Source of the DNA: Gemmatimonadaceae bacterium
GTDB lineage: Bacteria; Latescibacterota; UBA2968; UBA8231
Assembly: GCA_002726335.1 (NCBI GenBank)
Contig: PBSR01000109.1
Location: forward strand, 1-14,620
Reading direction: 5' to 3'
Length of the DNA stretch: 14,620 nucleotides
This document shows, in pieces, positions 4,980 through 14,620 of this stretch. Below the pieces are notes generated by a model, which was given only the letters and a program-made list of their open reading frames with translations, had not been told where the DNA came from and did no database searches. Position numbers and translations under genes: made by a program. Position 1 is the first letter of the stretch; the number at the start of each line of letters is the position of its first letter.

Positions 4980-7351
4980 TAGCGTCCGTCAGGAGACTCG
5001 GTGACCGCGTGAAAGCGGTCCACGCCAGGGACCCCGAGGCGATCGATCTGCCCCGAAGGCCAGTGGACCTCCACGGCGTCGACTCGGTCCCGCTGACCGA
5101 GGCCGAGCTCGACGTCAAGACTGTTGCCGGAGCCGAAGCCGTCACCGCTGGTGACCTGTGTGGCGGTTGTATGGTCACCGGCGCGTAGTACGACACGGGC
5201 GCCGATGGCGCCGCGGTTGGGAGCGGCCCCGGACAACCGGAGCCCGATCCAGTGGTTGCCGTGGCCATCGTTGCGGTAGAGGCTGTTGGCCCACACGTCC
5301 CCGGGATGGTGACCGCCGATGCCGGCGTAGAGGTCGAGGTCGCCGTCGTCGTCGAAATCTGCAAAGGTGGCGCCGTGTCCCTTGCCCAGGTTGCCGACGC
5401 CGGCGCTCTCGGTGATGTCGGCGAAGCCTTCCTCGCGGTTCTGGTAGAGGGTGTTCGGTTCGAGGCGCGACATCTCGGGACCGCCGTTGGACAGGTAGAG
5501 ATCGACGCGACCGTCGTAATCAATGTCGCCGTAACCCGCCCCCATGGAGCCGAAGGAGCGGCGCAAGCCCACATGGTTGCCCACTTCCGTGAATCGCGTA
5601 TGGCCCTCGTTGCGATACAGGTGCGCCCTGGGACCACCGGCCTGACCGGTAACCTGGGACTCGACGAAGTGCTCGTAGTGACACATGGTGCTGACAAACA
5701 GGTCCAGGTCGCCGTCGACGTCGTAGTCGGTGAAGAAGGAGACGTAGCTGGCCTGGATGGGGCGCTCGACGCCGGCTTCGGTGGTGACGTCGGTGAAGCC
5801 GGCGCCGCCGTCATTTCGCAGCAGCGTATTCGGTCCGGCCACATCGACGACGTAGAGATCGAGGTCACCGTCGGCGTCGTAGTCACCGAAGGCGACGCCA
5901 AGGGTCCTGCCCGCCACCGCCGCCCCCATGGCCCGGCCGCACTCATCGAACCTGCCGTCACCACGGTTGATGAACAGCTTGTTGGCCGCCCCCGTACCGG
6001 TAATGCCGTCGGCGACATACAGATCGACCCAGCCATCGCCGTCGACATCGGCCCAGGTGGCATGGAAGCTGTCATCGGGGTCGCTGACGCCGGCAGCGTC
6101 TCCGGCGTCGGTGAAGCGGAGTGGCCCCGCCGCGTTGTGCTCATTGCGGTACAGCGAGTTGGCTGCACGGCCTTCCCAGGCATCACGGGTCACGTACAGG
6201 TCGGCATCGCCGTCGTTGTCATAGTCGGCGGCGGTGGCGCTCCAGCCGCCGCTGAGATCGGCGAGGTCCGCCGCCTCGGTGAGATCGGCGAAGCCGCCTC
6301 TGCCATCGCTGCGGAACAGAGAGTGACGGGCGTGAATCGCCACCGTGAACATGTCGAGACTTCCGTCGCCATCGAGATCCGACCAGACGTTGCCGCGCCC
6401 CCGGTCGACCCGGTCGACGCCGACCACCGGGGCGACGTCAGTGAAGTGAACCGGTGATTCCCGGGCGTCGTCGTTCAGCTCCAGGTGGTATTCGGCGGGC
6501 AGCTGCCCCGGGTAGGTCCCGTGGGCGGCCAGGTAGGCGGCGCGCAGGTTCCAGCGGCGCACGAGTCGGCGGGGTGAGTCCGGCGGCAGGGCGTCGACGG
6601 CGTCGCGGTAGGCATCCACGGCAGCTTCGAACTGACCCTGTCGATAGAGAGCCGTGCCGAGGAAGAACGTGAGGGGCACGTCCCCGGGTGTTTCTGTTAC
6701 CAGCGTCTGCAGTTCCGTGGTGGCGCGTTCGAGCTGTCCCACCCGCAGTCGTGATGCCGCCGCCCCGGCCCGGGCAGGTCGGTACTCCGGGTGATGTTGC
6801 AGCGCCTGCTCATACTGGACCAGCGCCCCTTCGGGATCGGGCGGCTTTCTCGTCATCAGCAGATCCGCGAGCAGCATGCGGATGCCGACGTGGGCGGGCA
6901 GGTCGGCGGCCAGCTCCCGCAGCAGCTCGATCGCCTCCCGTCGGCGTTCGAGCCGTACCAGCGTTCGCGCCAGCTGCATGCGCGCCTCCGGCCGGCGCGG
7001 GTCGACGGATCGAGCCTGCTGCAGAGGGGCCAGGGCCTCGGCGTGGCGGTCCCGGCGCATGTGCACCTCCGCCAGGCCCAGATTGGCCTCGTAGTGGGTG
7101 TCGTCGAGATCCAGAACCTGGCCAAAAAGAACGGCGGCCGAGTCGAACCGCCCCTGGCGGACCTGGGTGATGGCCCGGGCGTAGAGCGTATCGATCTGTT
7201 GACGCTCCCCAGCGACCGGCACACCTTTTGGACCGTTCTCCGCCGGCTCCTGCTCCGAGCACGCGGACAGCATCAGGCCCACCAGTATCCAGGTAGAGGC
7301 GTGGCCCAGAAGACGAGCCGGATCACAGCGGGTGAGTCGAGACAAGGGCAT
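4979..7351 (-). CDS. TPR + seven-blade FG-GAP propeller + ASPIC/UnbV lipoprotein
   Basis: 790 residues from the ATG at 7351. That start gives a classic lipoprotein signal: Arg residues near the N-terminus, hydrophobic core WILVGLML (21-28), lipobox LSAC (28-31) and Cys31. A GTG at 7468 would add 39 residues before the signal and is not preferred. TPR repeats occupy about 52-275. Then come seven FG-GAP/VCBS calcium motifs: DLDGDGSLD 325, DYDNDGDAD 376, DVDGDGWVD 435, DYDADGDLD 490, DYDVDGDLD 542, DIDYDGRVD 609 and DFDDDGDLD 665, spaced 51-67 residues, as in one seven-blade propeller. The C-terminus (about 699-775) is an ASPIC/UnbV domain with NHWIGLRLSG, NRGAIGARV and EVHWPSG. Such proteins sit on the cell surface and are thought to bind calcium and ligands or mediate adhesion; exact function is unknown. 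It is coupled to the TPR protein downstream and divergent from the permease operon. Confidence 0.93.
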   Translation of the reverse strand: MPLSRLTRCDPARLLGHASTWILVGLMLSACSEQEPAENGPKGVPVAGERQQIDTLYARAITQVRQGRFDSAAVLFGQVLDLDDTHYEANLGLAEVHMRRDRHAEALAPLQQARSVDPRRPEARMQLARTLVRLERRREAIELLRELAADLPAHVGIRMLLADLLMTRKPPDPEGALVQYEQALQHHPEYRPARAGAAASRLRVGQLERATTELQTLVTETPGDVPLTFFLGTALYRQGQFEAAVDAYRDAVDALPPDSPRRLVRRWNLRAAYLAAHGTYPGQLPAEYHLELNDDARESPVHFTDVAPVVGVDRVDRGRGNVWSDLDGDGSLDMFTVAIHARHSLFRSDGRGGFADLTEAADLADLSGGWSATAADYDNDGDADLYVTRDAWEGRAANSLYRNEHNAAGPLRFTDAGDAAGVSDPDDSFHATWADVDGDGWVDLYVADGITGTGAANKLFINRGDGRFDECGRAMGAAVAGRTLGVAFGDYDADGDLDLYVVDVAGPNTLLRNDGGAGFTDVTTEAGVERPIQASYVSFFTDYDVDGDLDLFVSTMCHYEHFVESQVTGQAGGPRAHLYRNEGHTRFTEVGNHVGLRRSFGSMGAGYGDIDYDGRVDLYLSNGGPEMSRLEPNTLYQNREEGFADITESAGVGNLGKGHGATFADFDDDGDLDLYAGIGGHHPGDVWANSLYRNDGHGNHWIGLRLSGAAPNRGAIGARVVLRAGDHTTATQVTSGDGFGSGNSLDVELGLGQRDRVDAVEVHWPSGQIDRLGVPGVDRFHAVTESPDGR

Positions 7352-7431
7352 AGCAGAAGGTGAGGGAGAAACTCGCCGACCGCCGTGGCAGGCGCAACCA
7401 ACCAGGTGCCGAAGAGAGAGGCCCCACGAAA
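7352..7431. promoter_or_regulatory. Divergent intergenic control region
   Basis: About 80 bases between the likely starts of the lipoprotein gene (7351, leftward) and the permease gene (7432, rightward). Both operons should be transcribed from here. It is GC-rich and I find no convincing sigma70 -10/-35 pair, inverted repeat or riboswitch-like structure. If the permease instead starts at the GTG at 7360, only eight bases separate the genes and promoters must lie inside the coding sequences. Confidence 0.4.
7413..7421 (+). promoter_or_regulatory. Purine-rich ribosome site favouring the GTG at 7432
   Basis: AGAGAGAGG ends ten bases before the GTG at 7432. It is a weak-to-moderate Shine-Dalgarno, but better placed than anything before the alternative GTG at 7360, where AAGGG is 11 bases away. 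Confidence 0.4.
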
Positions 7432-9447
7432 GTGACAACAGGGACAGGGCGAACAGGTACGTCGGCACGGGATGAGTACCAGATCGTGTCGCCGGATGCC
7501 CCCTTCGAGCCCGGGTTCAACATCAAGACGCTGCTGGCGGCCCTCTTCGTCGGCTTCCTCATGCTCCCGGGGGCTATCTACCTTGGCCTGGTGACCGGTC
7601 AGAGCATGGCGGGGGGCGCCGAGTGGGTCACCCTGATCCTCTTCATCGAGATCGCCAAGCGCTCTTTCGTGCATCTGCGTACCCAGGAGATCATTATCCT
7701 GTACTGGGTGGCCGGCGGTCTGGTGGTGATGGGCGGCAAACTGGGCACGGGCGCCGACCTGTTCGGCGGACCTTTCGGCGTCCTCATCTGGGACCAGTAT
7801 CTCATCCAGTCGCCTCAGGCGGACGGCCTGGCTCAGTACATCCCCAGCTGGGTCGTGCCCGAGCGCGGTTCCGAGGCGTTGCTGGACCGGACCTTCCTGC
7901 ACGCCGACTGGCTGGCACCGGTGTTGATTCTCGTGGTGGCCGTCACCCTGCAGCGGATCAACGCGCTGTCTCTCGGGTATGTCCTGTTTCGTATTACCAG
8001 CGACATCGAGCGTCTGCCCTTCCCCATGGCCTACGTGCAGGCCGGCGGCGCCACGGCCCTGGCCGAGACGTCGTCAAAAAAGGAGGGGTGGCGCTGGCAG
8101 GTGTTCAGTACCGGCACCTTCATCGGCGCCACGTGGGGGCTCGTCTACGTGGGAGTGCCCACCCTCTCCGGCGTCTTCCTGACGGAGACGGTGTCCATCC
8201 TGCCGATCCCCTTCATCGATTTCACCGTACCGGTCAAATCCGTTCTGCCCGCTGCGGTCCTCGGTGTCGGCACCGACCTCGTCCACCTCTTCATCGGCCT
8301 CGTGTTGCCCCTCTGGATCGTCGTCGGCGCTTTCGCCTCCTCCATGCTCGTCAACCTGGTGGCCAATCCGCTGCTCTACGCCGAGGGCATTCTGCACACC
8401 TGGTCTCCCGGCATGTCGGCGATCCCGACGATGGTGGCCAACTCCTTCGACTTCTGGCTCAGCTTTTCCATCGGCGGCGCCATCGCCGTGGCGGTGGTGG
8501 GATTCTGGACGGCGGGACGGGCGATGATGGCGGCCTCGCGGGCGGCGCGAGATCAACCCGCCGTCGAGGCCCGTTCGCGCAACGAAGGACGGGGGGACAT
8601 GCCCATATGGCTCGCGCTGGGCATCTGGGGGCTGAGCACAACCGGCTTCGTCGCCATGGTGGCGTATCTCGTACCCCAGTTCCCGATCTGGATCACCCTC
8701 TTCTTCGGTTTCGTCTGGACGCCTATCTATTCGTACATCGGGGCCCGCATGATCGGTCTCACGGGAAGCCCCCAGGGCGTCACCTTCCCGTACCTGCGCG
8801 AGGCCAGCTTCTACATGTCCGGATACCAGGGCGCCTCCATCTGGTTCGCCCCGGTGCCCATCTTCCAGTGGGGCTACGAGGTGCAGGCCTTCCGCCAGCT
8901 GGAGATCACCAAGACCAGTTTCGGCAGCCTGGTGAAGATGACGGCCATCACTCTGGTGGTAATGTTCGTCTGCAGCTTCCTGTTCTGGTCGTGGATCTGG
9001 AACCTCGGCGACATCCCCTCCTCGGCCTATCCCTACGTGCAGAAGTTCTGGCCCTTCCACGCCACCATGCAGTCCTTCTGGGCCAAGTCGACCCTGCCCG
9101 GCGCCGCCGCCACGGGGGTGGTGGAGCAGATCATCCGCTGGGACTACATCGGCATCGGCCTGGCCAGCAGCGGGTTGCTCTACGCCGCGCTCGTTGTGGC
9201 CCATGCCCCCGTGGCCATCTTCTACGGATTCGTCGCCGGCCTGGGACAGTGGCCCCACTTTGTTATTCTCAACTTCATCGGTGCTCTCCTCGGTCATTTC
9301 CACATGCGGCCGCGCTTCGGTGCGGAACGCTGGCGTGCCTACGCTCCCATCCTTCTGGCCGGCTATTCCTGCGGCGTCGGCCTGGTGGGTATGACCGCCA
9401 TCGCCATCGCCCTCATCTCGAAATCCGTGTCGCAGGTCATCTACTAA
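7432..9447 (+). CDS. OPT-like multi-pass permease (resembles DUF6785/DUF6784 proteins)
   Basis: 671 residues from the GTG at 7432; a GTG at 7360 would add 24 charged residues and is possible. Many long hydrophobic segments, roughly 14 to 16, suggest a polytopic inner-membrane protein. The first segment, starting near TLLAALFVGFLMLPGAIYLG, and the motif RLPFPMAYVQAGGATALAE (from the codon at about 8014) recall the LPFP-x-(A/G) signature of the oligopeptide transporter (OPT) superfamily. A cytoplasmic-type charged loop (about 8520-8600) divides two halves. The C-terminal part, with PYVQKFWPFHATMQSFW, fits the DUF6784-type end of these proteins. OPT relatives carry peptides or metal chelates; the substrate of this branch is unknown. 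It is first in a six-gene run that ends in sugar-acid enzymes, so a sugar acid or other small organic substrate is a reasonable guess. The downstream lipoprotein starts 16 bp after the stop. Confidence 0.82.
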   Translation: MTTGTGRTGTSARDEYQIVSPDAPFEPGFNIKTLLAALFVGFLMLPGAIYLGLVTGQSMAGGAEWVTLILFIEIAKRSFVHLRTQEIIILYWVAGGLVVMGGKLGTGADLFGGPFGVLIWDQYLIQSPQADGLAQYIPSWVVPERGSEALLDRTFLHADWLAPVLILVVAVTLQRINALSLGYVLFRITSDIERLPFPMAYVQAGGATALAETSSKKEGWRWQVFSTGTFIGATWGLVYVGVPTLSGVFLTETVSILPIPFIDFTVPVKSVLPAAVLGVGTDLVHLFIGLVLPLWIVVGAFASSMLVNLVANPLLYAEGILHTWSPGMSAIPTMVANSFDFWLSFSIGGAIAVAVVGFWTAGRAMMAASRAARDQPAVEARSRNEGRGDMPIWLALGIWGLSTTGFVAMVAYLVPQFPIWITLFFGFVWTPIYSYIGARMIGLTGSPQGVTFPYLREASFYMSGYQGASIWFAPVPIFQWGYEVQAFRQLEITKTSFGSLVKMTAITLVVMFVCSFLFWSWIWNLGDIPSSAYPYVQKFWPFHATMQSFWAKSTLPGAAATGVVEQIIRWDYIGIGLASSGLLYAALVVAHAPVAIFYGFVAGLGQWPHFVILNFIGALLGHFHMRPRFGAERWRAYAPILLAGYSCGVGLVGMTAIAIALISKSVSQVIY

Positions 9448-9463
9448 CCAACTGGAGCCCCCC

Positions 9464-10357
9464 ATGAAGCGGTCCTGTCATCGCCTTCTCGGTCTGTCAC
9501 TGGCAGTCGGGTTCATGTCCGGTTGTATCCCCGCCCCCATCCCCAGCCCCACGCCCACGTCAGAAGAGCAGGAGGAACGTCTCAACCGCGAACGTTACCA
9601 GGCCCGGATTCGGGTGATCCCGGGGGCGCCGCAGGCGATCTCGGGATTCCTTCGCATCGGCCGGGTCTACGCCTCCAGGATGGGATCGGCGGCGGTGGTG
9701 AGTCGTGTCGGCAACCCACGAGATCTGGACATGATCCTCGACACGATCAACGAGTACACGGAGATCGAGGCCGACTTTGCGCCCGACCTGCCGTACAGCG
9801 ATCCGCGCCTGCTGGATCTGCCCATCATCATACCCCAGAGCGAGCCGAACGAAGTCGAGCTCGAACAGCTGACGCGGTACCTGTTGGAAGGGGGTTTCGT
9901 ACTCGACCCCGGTCTTGGTACAGATGTCTTCCGCGAGGGGTTGGAAAAGTACGGCGGCCTCGTCTGGGGTCAGGACGCCTGGATGGAGACCCTGCCCAGC
10001 GACCATCCCGTCTTCAACTCCTTCTTCGTACTGGGGGAGGTCCGGCCGTCCGCCGGTCAGCCATCGCCAAGAGGACTGTTCGTCAACGGTCGTCTTGCCG
10101 TTCTCAACTTCGAAACCCTCGGAATGCGTGAGGAGCAGACGCGAGCCGAGGTGAGCCGGCCCGGGCAGGTTCCCGGACGGGCGCCCGTTTCGCCGGGGAC
10201 GGAAACGGTGGATCCACAACTGCTGCGGGAACTCGACGCGGCTCACGTCGATCGTTTCCGCGACATCCGCTTCGAGAAAATGACCGTCAACGTCGTTGTC
10301 CACGCCCTGACGCAGGAAGGTTCGATCACGAGCCGCAACTCGACCGGTGGGAGATGA
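9464..10357 (+). CDS. DUF4159-like lipoprotein
   Basis: 297 residues. A ribosome site GGAG (9454-9457) precedes the ATG. The N-terminus is a lipoprotein signal: KR near the start, a hydrophobic stretch 8-18, and MSGC with Cys21, although Met at -3 is not ideal. A Pro-rich spacer (22-31) and a charged segment follow. The body matches the DUF4159 pattern. It has a region about INEYTEIEADF (95-105), then LTRYLLEGGFVLDPG (136-150), SDHPVFNSFFVLGEV (179-193) and GLFVNGRLAVLNFE (204-217), and it closes with VNVVVHALTQ (275-284). DUF4159 has a flavodoxin/GATase-like alpha/beta look in my recollection, and its function is unknown. Its stop overlaps the next start (ATGA at 10354-10357). A more diverged relative lies at the right edge of the window on the other strand. 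Confidence 0.85.
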   Translation: MKRSCHRLLGLSLAVGFMSGCIPAPIPSPTPTSEEQEERLNRERYQARIRVIPGAPQAISGFLRIGRVYASRMGSAAVVSRVGNPRDLDMILDTINEYTEIEADFAPDLPYSDPRLLDLPIIIPQSEPNEVELEQLTRYLLEGGFVLDPGLGTDVFREGLEKYGGLVWGQDAWMETLPSDHPVFNSFFVLGEVRPSAGQPSPRGLFVNGRLAVLNFETLGMREEQTRAEVSRPGQVPGRAPVSPGTETVDPQLLRELDAAHVDRFRDIRFEKMTVNVVVHALTQEGSITSRNSTGGR

Positions 10358-11070
10358 GAGCCTTCCAGCCGAGCGGGTTGTCTCTCGAGTCGTTCGTCGG
10401 CCGGCGCTTGCTGGCCCTGCTGGTGGCGCTGTCGCTGGCCGATGTCGTCATCCTGCTGAGCATCGGATTGAGCACGGCCGCCTTCGTCGGCATCGCCAAC
10501 GAGGGAGGCATTCGGAAGACTCTGCGCGCCCGCAGCTTCGAGGTCGTCAATCGGGCCGGCCAACCCGTCCTCGTGGCGACAGCAAATGAGGCGCACAACG
10601 GCGCCTTCTGGGTCAGTTCCGCGGGGGGCAAGGGAGGGGTCAGCATCGGTGTGGACGAGGCGGGGAATGGCAACATGACGGTGAACACCCGCTCGGGAGA
10701 TCCCTTGCTGACTGCCTCTGCCAGTGATGTCAGTGGCGGCGCCCTGCGGATCGTCGACGACGAGGGCGCTGACCTGGTCTTTGTCGGCACCGGCGACAGG
10801 GGCCACGGCCTGCTGATGACGAACAGCGGCCAGGGCGTCAACATCTTTCTCGCCGGTGCCGACTCGGCCGCCAACGGCGGTGTGCTCATCAATAGCAGAG
10901 ACGGAACGAACCTCATCTACGCCGGCGCCGGTGCCGGCGGCAGCGGCGGCCTGCACGTCAACAGCCGTGCAGGCAAGAGCCTCCTGTTCCTGGGGGCCTC
11001 GGAAGCCGGCGGCGGTGTTCTCGGCCTCTGGAACCGTGCCGGGCAGGGCCGCATCCTCGACGCTGACTAG
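10354..11070 (+). CDS. Membrane-anchored 23-residue-repeat protein (predicted beta-solenoid or trimeric beta-fibre)
   Basis: 238 residues. One long hydrophobic segment (about 18-48) near the N-terminus is preceded by RR, predicting a single membrane anchor with the rest outside the cytoplasm. From residue 62 to the end the protein is seven complete 23-residue repeats plus a partial eighth, with no insertion or deletion. The consensus is hydrophobic-x-(V/I)-N-x-x-x-G-x-x-(L/V)-(L/V/I)-x-x-G-A-x-x-x-G-x-G-x. The regular G and N turns with paired hydrophobic strands are typical of beta-solenoids or trimeric beta-helical fibres. No enzyme motif is present, so a structural or binding role is likely. 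It is translationally coupled to the DUF4159-like lipoprotein before it and precedes the isomerase gene by nine bases. I know similar 23-residue patterns from other bacterial hypothetical proteins but no assigned function. Confidence 0.88.
   Translation: MRAFQPSGLSLESFVGRRLLALLVALSLADVVILLSIGLSTAAFVGIANEGGIRKTLRARSFEVVNRAGQPVLVATANEAHNGAFWVSSAGGKGGVSIGVDEAGNGNMTVNTRSGDPLLTASASDVSGGALRIVDDEGADLVFVGTGDRGHGLLMTNSGQGVNIFLAGADSAANGGVLINSRDGTNLIYAGAGAGGSGGLHVNSRAGKSLLFLGASEAGGGVLGLWNRAGQGRILDAD
10537..11067 (+). repeat. Tandem 69-bp (23-residue) coding repeat, 7.7 units
   Basis: Units by residue: 62-84, 85-107, 108-130, 131-153, 154-176, 177-199, 200-222 and the partial 223-238. The residue at unit position 8 is Gly in all eight. 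The N at position 4 or 5 (VNRAG, VNTRSG, INSRDG, VNSRAG, WNRAG) recurs in most. Repeats 6, 7 and 8 are the most alike. The DNA of the units has diverged, so this is an old protein repeat rather than a recent DNA duplication. Confidence 0.85.
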
Positions 11071-11073
11071 GAG
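11069..11073 (+). promoter_or_regulatory. Shine-Dalgarno AGGAG embedded in the upstream stop
   Basis: AGGAG begins inside the TAG stop (11068-11070) of the repeat protein and sits six bases before the ATG at 11080. It fixes the isomerase start and argues for reinitiation by terminating ribosomes. Confidence 0.75.
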
Positions 11074-11079
11074 CGAGTC

Positions 11080-11877
11080 ATGCAGATCGGCTGCCTGATC
11101 TCAGATCTTGACCAACTGGACCACGTGTCCCAATGGGGGTACGACTACGCCGAGTCCGTGCCCTGGGTCATCGACCCCCACGTGCTCGATCCGGCCCGGG
11201 CCGCCGGCCGGGAGGAACGCGATTCGCTCCGTCGGCTGGAGACCTCATCGGTATCCATGCCGGTGTTCTGCGGTTTTATCCCCGAGCCGGAGAAGCACGG
11301 ACTGATGGTCGTCGGCCCCCATGTCGACGCGGCGCGTCTGCGTGGCTATGTGACCCGACTGTTCGACCTGATGCAGCGGGCCGGAATCGGCGTGATCGGC
11401 TATGGCAGCGGTGGCTCGCGATGGGTACCGGACGGGTTTCCCCAAGACCGGGCGCTGGGCCAGGTGCGCGATTTCCTGAGCCTGTGTGCCGAGCTCGGTG
11501 AGCCCCGCGGTGTGAAGGTGGCGCTTGAGCCGTACAACCGGGACGACGCCAATCTGCTCAATACGGTGCCGGAGGCCTTGCGGCTGGTGCAAGACATGGA
11601 CTGTCCACACATCCAGCTGATGGCCGACTTCTTCCACATGCGGCTCAACGGCGAGTCTGACGACGAGCTGACGACGGCAGGGCCTTTCCTCATCCACGGT
11701 CACATCGCCGAGCCCGGCCGAGGGCGAGCCCAGACCACGCCCGAACAGCACGCCGACTATCTGATGGCACTGCGACGGGCAGGGTACGACGGGAGGGTGA
11801 CGCAAACCGGGGACCTGCCCGCCTACGCCTCACCCGAAGCGGCGGCAGCCGCGCTGGTTGGGGCAGCCAGATCGTGA
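11080..11877 (+). CDS. Sugar phosphate isomerase/epimerase-like TIM barrel (AP endonuclease 2 superfamily)
   Basis: 265 residues, usual size for the family (PF01261). Expected metal ligands can be placed: E150 in VALEPYN, D183 in MADFFHM, and H208 in HGHIAEPGRGR, with H186 as an extra candidate. The barrel-like alternation of strands and helices is visible throughout. The final Glu ligand, expected on the last strand of epimerases of this group, is not apparent; that position reads GRVTQTGDLP, with Q242 or T243 instead. The protein may therefore bind metal with three protein ligands, or may not be a canonical epimerase. Its gene overlaps the next (GTGA at 11874-11877). With the cyclase-family and dehydratase genes it forms the catabolic part of the operon. 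Likely cytoplasmic, acting on a ketose, aldose or inositol-type substrate that cannot be specified. Confidence 0.85.
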   Translation: MQIGCLISDLDQLDHVSQWGYDYAESVPWVIDPHVLDPARAAGREERDSLRRLETSSVSMPVFCGFIPEPEKHGLMVVGPHVDAARLRGYVTRLFDLMQRAGIGVIGYGSGGSRWVPDGFPQDRALGQVRDFLSLCAELGEPRGVKVALEPYNRDDANLLNTVPEALRLVQDMDCPHIQLMADFFHMRLNGESDDELTTAGPFLIHGHIAEPGRGRAQTTPEQHADYLMALRRAGYDGRVTQTGDLPAYASPEAAAAALVGAARS

Positions 11878-12581
11878 CGGCTCCCGCATTTCAGTACCGA
11901 CGGTTCGTCGATCTGTCCCGAACCCTCAATCCGGAGGGTGATCAGCATCCCTGGACGCGCTACGAGACCCGCACTGACAGCATCGTCGATGATCCTGAAT
12001 CCGTACCCGCTGAGGGCAGGTGGTACGTGGTGACGCAGATCGCCATGAGCGGCCACGCCGGCACACACGTGGAGTCGCCGTTGCACGCGGTGGCGACGGG
12101 GGACGACGTAGCGCAGATGCAGGTGGATCGGTTCTTCGGGGAGGCGGTGGTCCTCGATCTGAGTGATACGCCGTGGTCGGAGCCTTTCGGGTTGAAGGAC
12201 CTGCGGGCAGCAGCCCAGGCGGCTGGCGGCATTCGCCAGGGCGACATCGTGTTCTGTCGTTTCGACTGGGACCGGCGTGCCTCCGCCGGCGCCTATCCAC
12301 CCTACCCGACGCCAGAGGCCCTCGAGTGGCTCGTTGGCCAGGGCATCAAGCTGCTGGGCATCGACAGCCCCGGTCTCGAGGTCCAGGGCAACCGGGCGAA
12401 TATCAACCACCACATCCTCTTCGATCGGGGCATCCCCCTGATCGAGAGCCTCATCCACCTCGAACAGCTGGAGAGTTCGCGGGTCTACGTTTTCGCCCTG
12501 CCGTTGCCGGCGCAGAAGACCGACGCCGTCCCCCTGCGAGTTCTGGCCTTCGAAGGACACGAAACAGGAGAACAGACATGA
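11874..12581 (+). CDS. Cyclase-family (PF04199) metal-dependent hydrolase, kynurenine formamidase-like fold
   Basis: 235 residues from a GTG that overlaps the preceding stop. The family metal motif is present as HAGTHVESPLH (61-71). H61 and H65 match ligands of the KynB-type site, while E67 replaces the usual Asp. The second metal cluster appears in NINHHILFDRGIPLIESLIHLEQL, with H180 and E191 in the expected places. The early strand FVDLSRTLNP (11-20) is the standard N-terminal signature. Family members hydrolyse formamides, carbamates, isatin or lactone-like bonds. A kynurenine role is unlikely here because no tryptophan-pathway genes are near. Lying between an isomerase-like and a mannonate-dehydratase-like gene, a lactone- or cyclic-ester-opening step on a sugar acid is a plausible inference. 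Stop overlaps the next start (ATGA at 12578-12581). Confidence 0.9.
   Translation: MTAPAFQYRRFVDLSRTLNPEGDQHPWTRYETRTDSIVDDPESVPAEGRWYVVTQIAMSGHAGTHVESPLHAVATGDDVAQMQVDRFFGEAVVLDLSDTPWSEPFGLKDLRAAAQAAGGIRQGDIVFCRFDWDRRASAGAYPPYPTPEALEWLVGQGIKLLGIDSPGLEVQGNRANINHHILFDRGIPLIESLIHLEQLESSRVYVFALPLPAQKTDAVPLRVLAFEGHETGEQT
12566..12570 (+). promoter_or_regulatory. Shine-Dalgarno AGGAG of the dehydratase gene
   Basis: AGGAG lies seven bases before the ATG at 12578, inside the end of the cyclase-family gene. It selects this ATG over the much longer upstream-open frame, which starts at 12173 and lies in the cyclase gene. Confidence 0.75.
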
Positions 12582-13555
12582 AGATCGCCCTTGCCTTCGG
12601 CCCGGAGCCAAGTGCTGTCGCCGCCTTCGGAACCCAGTGTGGCGTGGAGCACGCCGTTGGCACTTTCAGTCTGGATCCGGTGGCCGGCGCCGGCCCCGAG
12701 GCACAGCCCTGGAGTCAGCCGTCCCTGGCGCGTGCGAAGGCGGCCTATGAGAGGCTGGGGTACCAGCTGGCCGTCATCGAGAGCCGGCCGCCGATGGAGC
12801 AGATCAAGCTGGCCCAGTCCGGCCGAGACGCCGAGATCGAAGTGGTCTGTGATATGATTCGCAACATGGGCGCCGTCGGGATCCCGGTGTGGTGTCCCAT
12901 GTGGATGCCAGTGCACCACGTGATCCGCACCTCCTTCGACATCCCGACACGCGGCGACGCCATGGTCAGCGGCTTCGATATCGAGACGTTCAACAGTACG
13001 GCGGGTCCCATCGAGCATGGTGAGGTGACCGAACAGGATCAGTGGGACAATCTGAGGTATTTCTTAGAGCGGGTCGTCCCCGTCGCCGAGGAGGCCGGTG
13101 TCAAACTGGCCATGCACCCCGATGATCCACCGCTGTCGCCGATCCAGGGGGTGGCCCGCATCATCAGCAGTATCGACAACTACCAGAAGATGGTCGATCT
13201 CGTGCCCAGCCCGGCGCACGGTATCGGCCTGTGTCAGGGCAACTTCGGCCTGATGACGGACGATCTGCCCGGGGCGATCAGACACTTCGGCGAACAGGGC
13301 AAGATTCACTTCGTCCACTTCCGAGACATCCGCGGCACCCCCGAGAACTTCGTCGAGGCCTTCCACGACGACGGCAAACACGACATGGCCGCCTGCGTGC
13401 GTGCCTACCGGGACGTGGGCTACGAAGGCGTGGCACGACCGGATCACTTTCCGCGGCTGACCCACGGCGATTTTGCCGACGAACACTACATGGAACGGTT
13501 GTTTGCCATCGGCTATATGAGGGGGCTCATCGAGGCTGTGCACAGCGAGGGGTGA
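12578..13555 (+). CDS. Mannonate dehydratase-like protein (UxuA family)
   Basis: 325 residues, clearly shorter than E. coli UxuA (about 394). The family reaction is dehydration of D-mannonate to 2-keto-3-deoxygluconate in glucuronate breakdown, using Mn/Fe in a TIM barrel in the cytoplasm. The four metal ligands of UxuA can be matched: H180 in HPDDPP, C219 in GLCQGN, H247 in FVHFRDIRG, and D289 in RPDHFP. WMPVHHVIRTSFDIP (109-123) parallels the UxuA segment with MPV followed by an RT(D/S) step. The N-terminus is shortened and lacks the longer family insert, so the substrate could be another aldonate. It is the last gene of the six-gene run and ends seven bases before a convergent gene. Confidence 0.88.
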   Translation: MKIALAFGPEPSAVAAFGTQCGVEHAVGTFSLDPVAGAGPEAQPWSQPSLARAKAAYERLGYQLAVIESRPPMEQIKLAQSGRDAEIEVVCDMIRNMGAVGIPVWCPMWMPVHHVIRTSFDIPTRGDAMVSGFDIETFNSTAGPIEHGEVTEQDQWDNLRYFLERVVPVAEEAGVKLAMHPDDPPLSPIQGVARIISSIDNYQKMVDLVPSPAHGIGLCQGNFGLMTDDLPGAIRHFGEQGKIHFVHFRDIRGTPENFVEAFHDDGKHDMAACVRAYRDVGYEGVARPDHFPRLTHGDFADEHYMERLFAIGYMRGLIEAVHSEG

Positions 13556-13562
13556 ACGAGGG

Positions 13563-14620
13563 CTACCGGCGCGTCTCTTCGGCAGCCGGGTATCGGCCAC
13601 TCAGCCCGCCTGGCTGGATCAACCCGAAGACGACGGCATTGACGAAGACCTCGCGCCGGCGCGAGCGCAGGGTCACCGCCACCAGGCGGCCGTCTACCTG
13701 CAGGCCGTCCACGGGGGCATCGTTGGCCTGGCGAGGCGCTTCGTAGTAGTCGTCGATTGTGTAGTGTGACCCCATGAGGGCATGGTTGGACCAGATGCCA
13801 ACCCGCTCGACCCGCCTTCGGCCCAGATGCCGGGCAAGGGCGGTTTCGAGACTTTCCAGTTGTCGCCGACGAGCCATGACGAACCCGCCAGCGGCGAGAT
13901 ATCGGACCAGGACCTCGGTCGACTCCGGGTCGATCCACTGCAGCAGGAGCACCGGGAAGCGGCCGATATCGGTGCTGTCCAGGACATCGCGGTAAGGTTG
14001 CCATCCGTAGGTGTGGATCGGGTCGTGATCTATCTGCTCTTCCTGCTCCGATTCCTGCGCGTTGAAGTCGTAGCCGTCTTCCAGAACGGCGCGGATCGGC
14101 AGGGGCTGCAGCCTCTGTTCGCGCACGATCGGGAAGAGATCGGCGGTGACATTCGGCAGTCCCACACCGCCAAGGATTTCCTCGAAGCGGTCTTCGAAGT
14201 CCCGGTACAGACTGTCATACCGGGTACAGCCGGGACACGCCTCATGGCCGTACACCGGCAGCCGCCACGAGGCCCGTATCAGGCGCCCCGTCTCCGGATC
14301 GACGACCACGACCGTCTCGCCAAGAAAACCGGCCTTGATGGCCAGTTCGAAGGGGGAGAGGGGGAGTTCGGCTCGCCGTTCTTCCGGCGTCAGGGTCAGC
14401 TGCAGGTCGAGGGAGTCGCGCCAGCTCTGCAGCGCCTGCCGCTCCCGCAGGAGGCGGTCAGGCTGTGACCGGCCCCCATCAACATCGACACGGGCCACGG
14501 TGGGAGACAGGGCGGAGTCCGCCTCCACCATGCCGCGTTCCAGCAGCCACTCGCCGTCCACGAGAAGCGCAGCGTGCCGCCGTAGAGGCGCCCCCGGCGC
14601 CGACCATCGCAGGGAGAACA
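13563..14620 (-). CDS. Second, diverged DUF4159-like protein, N-terminus outside the window
   Basis: The frame stays open to the right edge, so the gene is partial; 351 residues are visible. A GTG at 14561 could be read as a start, but the frame continues upstream with FSLRWSAPGAPLRRH, so a longer protein is more likely. Residues about 220-340 align with the DUF4159-like lipoprotein of this window: LVRYLAAGGFVMA (237-249) with LTRYLLEGGFVLD, NHALMGSHYTIDDY (278-291) with DHPVFNSFFVLGEV, GLQVDGRLVAV with GLFVNGRLAVL, and FVNAVVFGLIQ with TVNVVVHALTQ. The middle carries a CPGC pair (C128, C131), possibly a metal or redox site. An acidic stretch at 182-199 separates it from the domain. Function unknown. 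It is convergent with the dehydratase gene, seven bases apart. Confidence 0.8.
   Translation of the reverse strand, partial: FSLRWSAPGAPLRRHAALLVDGEWLLERGMVEADSALSPTVARVDVDGGRSQPDRLLRERQALQSWRDSLDLQLTLTPEERRAELPLSPFELAIKAGFLGETVVVVDPETGRLIRASWRLPVYGHEACPGCTRYDSLYRDFEDRFEEILGGVGLPNVTADLFPIVREQRLQPLPIRAVLEDGYDFNAQESEQEEQIDHDPIHTYGWQPYRDVLDSTDIGRFPVLLLQWIDPESTEVLVRYLAAGGFVMARRRQLESLETALARHLGRRRVERVGIWSNHALMGSHYTIDDYYEAPRQANDAPVDGLQVDGRLVAVTLRSRRREVFVNAVVFGLIQPGGLSGRYPAAEETRR

Follow-up and report, generated by a model that had tools for sequence, protein, structure and literature searches.

Organization of the operon

The window, the whole 14,620-nucleotide stretch of DNA analysed here, comes from an uncultured Latescibacterota-like bacterium and contains six packed genes that combine an importer, two surface proteins and three small-molecule enzymes. 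Gene 1 (PERM, 7432-9447) encodes a 671-aa polytopic permease, probably a divergent member of the OPT type. Gene 2 (9464-10357) encodes a 297-aa DUF4159 lipoprotein (PF13709), and gene 3 (REP, 10354-11070) a 238-aa, apparently membrane-anchored protein built of 23-residue repeats. The three enzymes follow. Gene 4 (TIM, 11080-11877) encodes a xylose-isomerase-like TIM barrel (PF01261), a ketose-3-epimerase relative that lacks the C-terminal Glu; gene 5 (CYC, 11874-12581) a cyclase-family metal hydrolase (PF04199) with the motif HAGTHVESPLH; and gene 6 (UXU, 12578-13555) a 325-aa UxuA-like TIM barrel (PF03786). The start of gene 1, a GTG at 7432, is that chosen in the preliminary description, and the longest ORF begins at 7360. 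A TPR/FG-GAP/UnbV_ASPIC lipoprotein-like gene (mASPIC, 4982-7351) diverges from the operon on the - strand, its start at 7351 being placed from the signal segment.

All six ORFs are on the + strand. The five junctions are, in order, 16 bp, an ATGA overlap, 9 bp, a GTGA overlap and an ATGA overlap (16, -4, 9, -4 and -4 bp); three of them are overlapping start and stop codons. The layout is as first described, and the proposal of an operon-like gene set is supported. No promoter was found by a sigma-70-type scan and terminator-like sites were at chance level (2 observed, 2.6 expected), so that the scan neither supports nor breaks the operon. No Rfam match was found in the window at gathering scores.

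The permease and its usual neighbours

The permease has multiple hydrophobic segments along its length (Kyte-Doolittle), and its AlphaFold model is helical and poor (pLDDT 52.1). OPT proteins carry out ion-coupled transport, importing peptides or metal chelates together with protons. The preliminary description called the permease OPT-like. Two of three homologues tested agree with this: P0097 (28.7 bits) and P0104 (39.6 bits), both 63% identical to the permease, pass the PF03169 cut-off of 25.8 bits. The window permease also has the polytopic form and the size (~670 aa) of the OPT family. The third, P0114 (58% identical), gave no match, nor did any of the 17 members of the permease alignment A1 at E<=1. 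In contrast to OPT family members, the window protein matches nothing in Pfam, and its profile found nothing in a PDB sequence search at E<=1. Gene 1 thus appears OPT-related through its homologues, not through a profile match of its own. At least 1772 permease homologues were found among 7998 candidates scored, those sharing the most words with the query (as in the REP search). Identities and names were taken from the best 120 matches, as for TIM; among the matches listed, some carry the automatic NCBI name 'peptide transporter'. No relative was found in viral contigs scanned with the permease alignment or with TIM, and PHROGs had nothing for genes 1, 2 and 3.

We compared 80 reference permease loci, 44-79% identical to the window permease, 53 of which span at least 4 kb downstream. 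The permease is usually accompanied by an M28-peptidase/FtsX protein of ~1,500-1,700 aa, by DUF6785 permeases or by PpiC, neighbours that set it apart from the OPT family; the M28/FtsX protein is the commonest. Of the 67 loci with 2.2 kb or more of upstream sequence, 51 have M28/FtsX no more than 2.3 kb, or DUF6785 no more than 0.3 kb, upstream of the permease; the count comes from tblastn (E<=1e-15) with a small set of representatives, some of them checked against Pfam. The codon-bias caller used for genes in the relatives placed some starts wrongly and overlooked the permease in 9 loci. The association with M28/FtsX extends beyond Latescibacterota to loci labelled Omnitrophota, Planctomycetota, Armatimonadetes and others. 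DUF6785 has 17-50 matches per genome in 15 relatives and none in 14 control genomes; the window permease has 4-7 matches per genome in 15 relatives, some of them fragments. None of the three usual partners was identified in the window, whose operon contains DUF4159, REP and UXU instead. Five loci have the order amidohydrolase-PERM-2-hydroxyacid dehydrogenase-Ldh_2, a sixth (L070) ends at the permease, and in L019 a BKACE gene follows the permease. Acid-metabolism enzymes therefore also adjoin other members of the permease family.

The preliminary description asked whether the permease, the DUF4159 lipoprotein, the repeat protein and the UxuA-like gene recur together, and took a permease in other contexts as evidence against the grouping. 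This combination occurs in none of the 80 loci, suggesting that the six-gene set is lineage-specific as far as sampled. In these loci the permease does stand apart from DUF4159, REP and UxuA. The DUF4159 lipoprotein and REP each occur a single time, at distances of 4 and 8 kb respectively (REP in locus L007), on the other strand. TIM, CYC and UXU gave no tblastn match in the available flanks of the 80 loci; for TIM and CYC, two genomes described below (G009 and G008) stand against this separation.

The envelope proteins

The gene 2 product scores 29.5 bits against PF13709 (cut-off 25.9), placing it in the DUF4159 family. Its signal segment ends in FMSGC, which we take to be a plausible lipobox. 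The closest relative in 64 genomes of the phylum (48% over residues 12-292) is on a 3.4-kb contig, G011:C71, on which no permease was found. In the PDB the gene 2 product has one weak match, the uncharacterised protein 4i66 (E 0.00068). REP has no Pfam match, a single hydrophobic segment (residues 14-50) and a poor AlphaFold model (pLDDT 51.4). Its 23-residue period is clear: lags 23 and 46 give mean BLOSUM62 scores of 0.98 and 1.03, whereas 300 shuffles never exceeded 0.11 over lags 8-49. At least 8 homologues were found among 7995 candidates scored. REP matches at E<=0.001 occur in 32 of the 64 phylum genomes, 11 of these below 1e-25, and matches in the PDB are weak (best E 0.059). Elsewhere, other neighbours stand beside DUF4159 and REP.

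Related genes do occur in the wider region. In 7 of the 12 relatives compared, the permease and the best mASPIC match are 12-30 kb apart; in 7 relatives a DUF4159 paralogue occurs at 20-24 kb from the permease. The comparison covers relatives with usable coordinates (excluding G009, G053 and G054 for ASPIC, and G001, G053 and G054 for M28) and the DUF4159 copies that share a contig with the permease or with ASPIC; of the copies sharing the permease contig, only that of G013 is the genome's best match.

The enzymes

Matches to PF01261, PF04199 and PF03786 agree with the three enzyme families first proposed; the label 'sugar-acid enzymes' derives from the family names. TIM scores 68.8 bits against PF01261. 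Ketose 3-epimerases have two catalytic or metal-binding Glu residues, an Asp and a His. TIM retains the first Glu (ALEPYNRD), the Asp (LMADFFHM) and the His (IHGHIAE), and the C-terminal Glu of 6wn6 aligns with a Thr; this site is Thr or Ser in all 11 aligned sequences, the window included. TIM thus departs from the ketose 3-epimerase pattern. CYC scores 106.5 bits against PF04199; kynurenine formamidase and isatin hydrolase are among its relatives of known structure. The metal motif of cyclases and kynurenine formamidases is HxGTHxDxPxH; CYC reads HAGTHVE, with Glu for Asp, in 12 of 12 aligned sequences. It scores 76.9 bits against the arylformamidase equivalog model (cut-off 223.05).

TIM orthologues (below 1e-90) were found in 10 of the 64 phylum genomes, and CYC adjoins TIM in all ten, the same pair in the same order as in the window. 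In 8 of the 10 the pair is preceded by a gene of 334-363 aa, Gfo/Idh in the one tested, and not by a permease; the window pair instead follows the permease, lipoprotein and REP genes and precedes UXU, and no Gfo/Idh match was found among the window ORFs scanned. The remaining two genomes connect the pair to the permease system. In G009, contig C7 starts with a permease C-terminus (77% over 43 aa), followed after 42 bp by TIM, CYC and M28/FtsX. The end of contig C84 carries a permease that agrees with the start of C7 at 127 of 128 bases; the one-base difference leaves the join of the two contigs unproven. A DMFA2_C (dimethylformamidase-like) gene follows M28/FtsX. G008 has the order DUF6785-TIM-CYC-M28/FtsX, with a DUF6785 permease in place of the window-type permease and M28/FtsX cut by the contig end. 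The link between the permease and the enzymes is thus real for two of them, TIM and CYC, in agreement with the earlier proposal. Protein clusters gave indirect indications, as longest contigs of equal size, matched by eye, may be the same contig. Permease and TIM clusters share the sizes 32,930 (89% and 77% identity) and 59,558 (78% and 74%), and permease and REP clusters the size 100,944; P0003, P0004 and other close permease clusters share no size with a TIM cluster among the matches listed.

UXU scores 258.6 bits against PF03786 and just reaches the NF003027 subfamily (194.3 bits, cut-off 191). Its C219, H247, D289 and H290 are all conserved in the alignment with 3ban; we take them to be the metal-site Cys/His/Asp/His, with roles as in S. 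suis ManD. UXU falls below the cut-off of the TIGR00695 UxuA equivalog (141.3 bits against 199.55). Near its 55-80% relatives, no match to the permease, TIM or CYC was found in the fetched flanks of 11 genomes, and no UXU match is labelled in the fetched TIM-CYC regions. In G003, a UXU orthologue (80%) lies beside a 58% relative of the permease-adjacent amidohydrolase.

Discussion

Only the importer and two of the enzymes are found together in a relative, which suggests that the set is a local variant of a transport system that is widespread yet undescribed. We give about an even chance to an operon that is specific to this lineage and has transport and catabolism at its core, with the substrate left unnamed. 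By analogy with other OPT proteins, the permease would take a small hydrophilic solute through the inner membrane in an ion-coupled manner. In the cytoplasm, TIM, a metal-dependent TIM barrel whose active site is altered, would act on the imported compound, CYC would carry out an amide- or lactone-hydrolase-like step and UXU a UxuA-like dehydratase step, the three together leading to central metabolites. On the periplasmic side, the DUF4159 lipoprotein and REP may serve in substrate capture or envelope support; in the window lineage they may have been recruited into the operon from sites close by.

The preliminary description suggested an operon for uptake and degradation of uronate (mannonate). 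UXU does match UxuA with the metal-site residues kept, an isomerase-like gene is nearby as in hexuronate loci, and use of uronic acids is reported for Latescibacteria single-cell genomes (PMC4454575). In the same paper the uptake of uronate is ascribed to an ExuT-like transporter of the MFS class, and the window transporter is of a different class from that of hexuronate loci. Eleven window ORFs were scanned against Pfam, leaving out the partial ORF at 1-624; UxaC, UxuB and KDG kinase (KdgK) were not found among them. With none of these pathway genes among the ORFs scanned, UXU below the equivalog cut-off, between 7 and 18 UxuA-like matches in each of 13 relatives and M28/FtsX as the commonest permease partner, the uronate link is weak, and we rejected this reading as highly improbable. 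Salvage of peptides or amides, in which a true oligopeptide transporter would supply enzymes acting on amide- or formyl-linked products rather than sugar acids, is unlikely but deserves more weight. It would fit the 'peptide transporter' names, the frequent occurrence of M28/FtsX or DUF6785 upstream (51 of 67 loci), the relationship of CYC to kynurenine formamidase and isatin hydrolase, and the DMFA2_C gene in G009. However, the names were assigned automatically, the families of TIM and UXU are those of sugar enzymes, and neighbouring Gfo/Idh and NAD-epimerase genes point to carbohydrate chemistry.

The envelope and enzyme trios could also be functionally unrelated, joined by local genome compaction and co-transcribed incidentally. 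The distances of ASPIC/TPR, DUF4159 and REP from the permease (8-30 kb, including REP in L007) indicate that these pieces are regional neighbours, and neither DUF4159 nor UXU was found adjacent to the permease in any of the 80 loci. Start and stop codons overlapping at three junctions argue against this explanation, as do the two other genomes in which TIM-CYC pairs stand beside M28/FtsX and either the permease or DUF6785, and we consider it quite improbable. More tentatively than the lineage-specific operon, we suggest that the window holds a variant of an undescribed, widespread uptake system in which OPT-type and DUF6785-type permeases are coupled to a giant M28-peptidase/FtsX membrane protein and exchangeable catabolic cassettes suit it to various acid or amide-linked substrates. 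No mention of DUF6785, DUF6784 or DUF4159 was found in the literature searched. If such permeases feed the attached cassettes, as the permease-TIM-CYC link suggests, their substrates could be tested from the adjoining enzymes, which would affect a large uncharacterised transport repertoire of uncultured bacteria. The cassettes in such a system would be TIM-CYC, amidohydrolase/2-hydroxyacid dehydrogenase/Ldh_2 and BKACE.

Results

Six genes on the + strand (7432–13555) form an operon-like set. The preliminary description had listed them with junctions of 16 bp, ATGA, 9 bp, GTGA and ATGA; the positions were borne out and the junctions are exact. The first gene encodes a permease (PERM, 7432–9447) and the third a repeat protein (REP, 10354–11070), neither of which matches a family. 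The second is a DUF4159 lipoprotein (9464–10357), and the last three are a xylose-isomerase-like TIM barrel (TIM, 11080–11877), a cyclase-family protein (CYC, 11874–12581) and a UxuA-family protein (UXU, 12578–13555). Scoring of 7998 candidates yielded 1772 PERM homologues, part of which carry the name ‘peptide transporter’ in records of Latescibacterota and Gemmatimonadetes. No Pfam model matched PERM itself. Two homologue clusters at 63% identity, P0097 and P0104, pass the cut-off of OPT PF03169, which by transitivity suggests that PERM is a divergent OPT-type permease; P0114 (58%) does not pass it.

The best 80 of 168 permease loci in reference genomes (44–79% identity) were searched with the window proteins (tblastn, E≤1e-3). 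At least 4 kb of downstream sequence was available in 53 of the 80, and in 7 of the 13 loci at ≥74% identity. Recurrence of the permease with the DUF4159, REP and UxuA-like genes, a question raised by the preliminary description, was not seen: TIM, CYC and UXU were found in none of these 80 loci, DUF4159 in one (L053, 4 kb off) and REP in one (L007, 8 kb off), both on the opposite strand. The neighbours that do recur are others, their Pfam identity resting on some representatives. In 51 of the 67 loci with 2.2 kb or more of upstream sequence, the permease is preceded by a protein with M28 peptidase and FtsX domains (M28/FtsX, <2.3 kb) or by the permease family DUF6785 (<0.3 kb), and in 13 PpiC adjoins the permease. 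PpiC is upstream in all 13 loci at ≥74% identity, and DUF6785 is downstream in 6 of the 7 such loci with at least 8 kb downstream.

The permease-TIM-CYC core is seen again in a relative. Of 64 genomes of the phylum, 10 carry a close TIM orthologue (E<1e-90) and five more only distant matches (7e-30 to 9e-16). CYC adjoins TIM in all ten, and it is also present in G053, where a close TIM is lacking. A 334–363-aa gene lies upstream of TIM in eight of the ten (Gfo/Idh in the one tested, L186). In G009, contig C7 opens on the C-terminal end of a permease (77% over 43 aa), followed after 42 bp by TIM, CYC and a 1530-aa M28/FtsX protein. Contig C84 of this genome ends in a permease behind PpiC, and 127 of 128 bases match the start of C7, which suggests, but does not prove, the order PpiC-PERM-TIM-CYC-M28/FtsX. 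G008 has DUF6785, TIM, CYC and an M28/FtsX gene cut by the contig end in a row, and its permease contig stops 17 bp past the last matched codon. Both genomes keep the TIM/CYC GTGA overlap. G010 has the permease C-terminus, an inverted DUF6785 and M28/FtsX, without TIM. As far as sampled, membership of the remaining genes is lineage-specific.

Metagenome clusters give an indirect hint that permease and TIM, and permease and REP, lie on the same contig. By eye, permease and TIM clusters agree in the length of their longest contig at 32,930 (P0002, P0131) and 59,558 (P0008, P0135), and permease cluster P0022 and REP cluster P0122 at 100,944, as the window's own clusters do at 507,372; other close permease clusters, such as P0003 and P0004, share no length with a listed TIM cluster, in a listing that gives only the longest contig per cluster.

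In all 11 aligned sequences TIM has no counterpart of the C-terminal Glu found in ketose 3-epimerases, and the CYC metal motif has E in place of D in 12 of 12.

Discussion

The uronate reading of the operon is weak. When aligned with solved mannonate dehydratases, UXU retains their metal-site Cys, His and Asp-His residues, but it falls below the cut-off of the UxuA equivalog model. UxuA-like proteins are expanded, with 7–18 matches per genome in 13 relatives (E≤1e-20). Neither the examined flanks of the 80% UXU orthologues (G003–G006) nor those of 55–65% relatives in seven more genomes contain a permease, TIM or CYC match. The G003 orthologue adjoins an NAD-epimerase-family gene and an amidohydrolase 58% identical to that of L050, whose family directly precedes the permease in six loci (L044, L047, L048, L050, L051 and L070). 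A 2-hydroxyacid dehydrogenase and Ldh_2 follow in five of the six, while L070 ends at the permease; here members of the permease family are surrounded by a different, independent enzyme cassette. Passages of one study describe uronic acid uptake in Latescibacteria through an ExuT-like MFS transporter (PMC4454575).

Judging from where related genes lie in relatives, the window appears to be a compacted and rearranged form of a neighbourhood that already held several of the pieces, though not UXU. In 7 of 12 relatives, the gene that best matches the divergent ASPIC/TPR gene (4982–7351, − strand) is separated from the permease by 12–30 kb; in the other five it is on a different contig. In 7 of 9 relatives a DUF4159 paralogue lies 20–24 kb away from the permease, the copies having been chosen for lying on the permease-bearing contig and being the genome's best match to the lipoprotein gene only in G013; the nearest relative of that gene lies among other genes on a short contig that lacks the permease. 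An M28/FtsX relative is 2–17 kb away in 6 of 12. REP, with a single hydrophobic segment and a strong periodicity of 23 residues, is convergent to M28/FtsX-DUF6785 in G013 and G053. Its homologues have or lack a 22-residue block, about one repeat, and in eight genomes (L115–L120, L195, L007) its orthologue is followed by a 756–766-aa protein, which in L117, the only case tested, carries F5/8-type C and CHU_C domains.

Searches without most subscription journals found no literature on DUF4159 or DUF6785/DUF6784, none joining Latescibacterota and mannonate dehydratase, and none joining peptidase M28 with FtsX and an oligopeptide transporter; one passage of PMC12993501 has nothing on the PERM operon system.

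The M28/FtsX protein (~1,500–1,700 aa; domains Pfam-checked in L187, L032 and L071) recurs upstream, beside the OPT permease, across several phyla (L029–L065 and others). DUF6785 (PF20581) is amplified, with 17–50 matches per genome in 15 relatives (G001–G013, G053, G054) and none in 14 control genomes. In the window, an ORF of ~581 aa (618–2366, + strand) matches nothing in Pfam or NCBIfam at E≤0.01, and the convergent gene at 13563–14618 (− strand), whose DUF4159 match is weak and below threshold (E 0.023), is possibly a second DUF4159-like protein.
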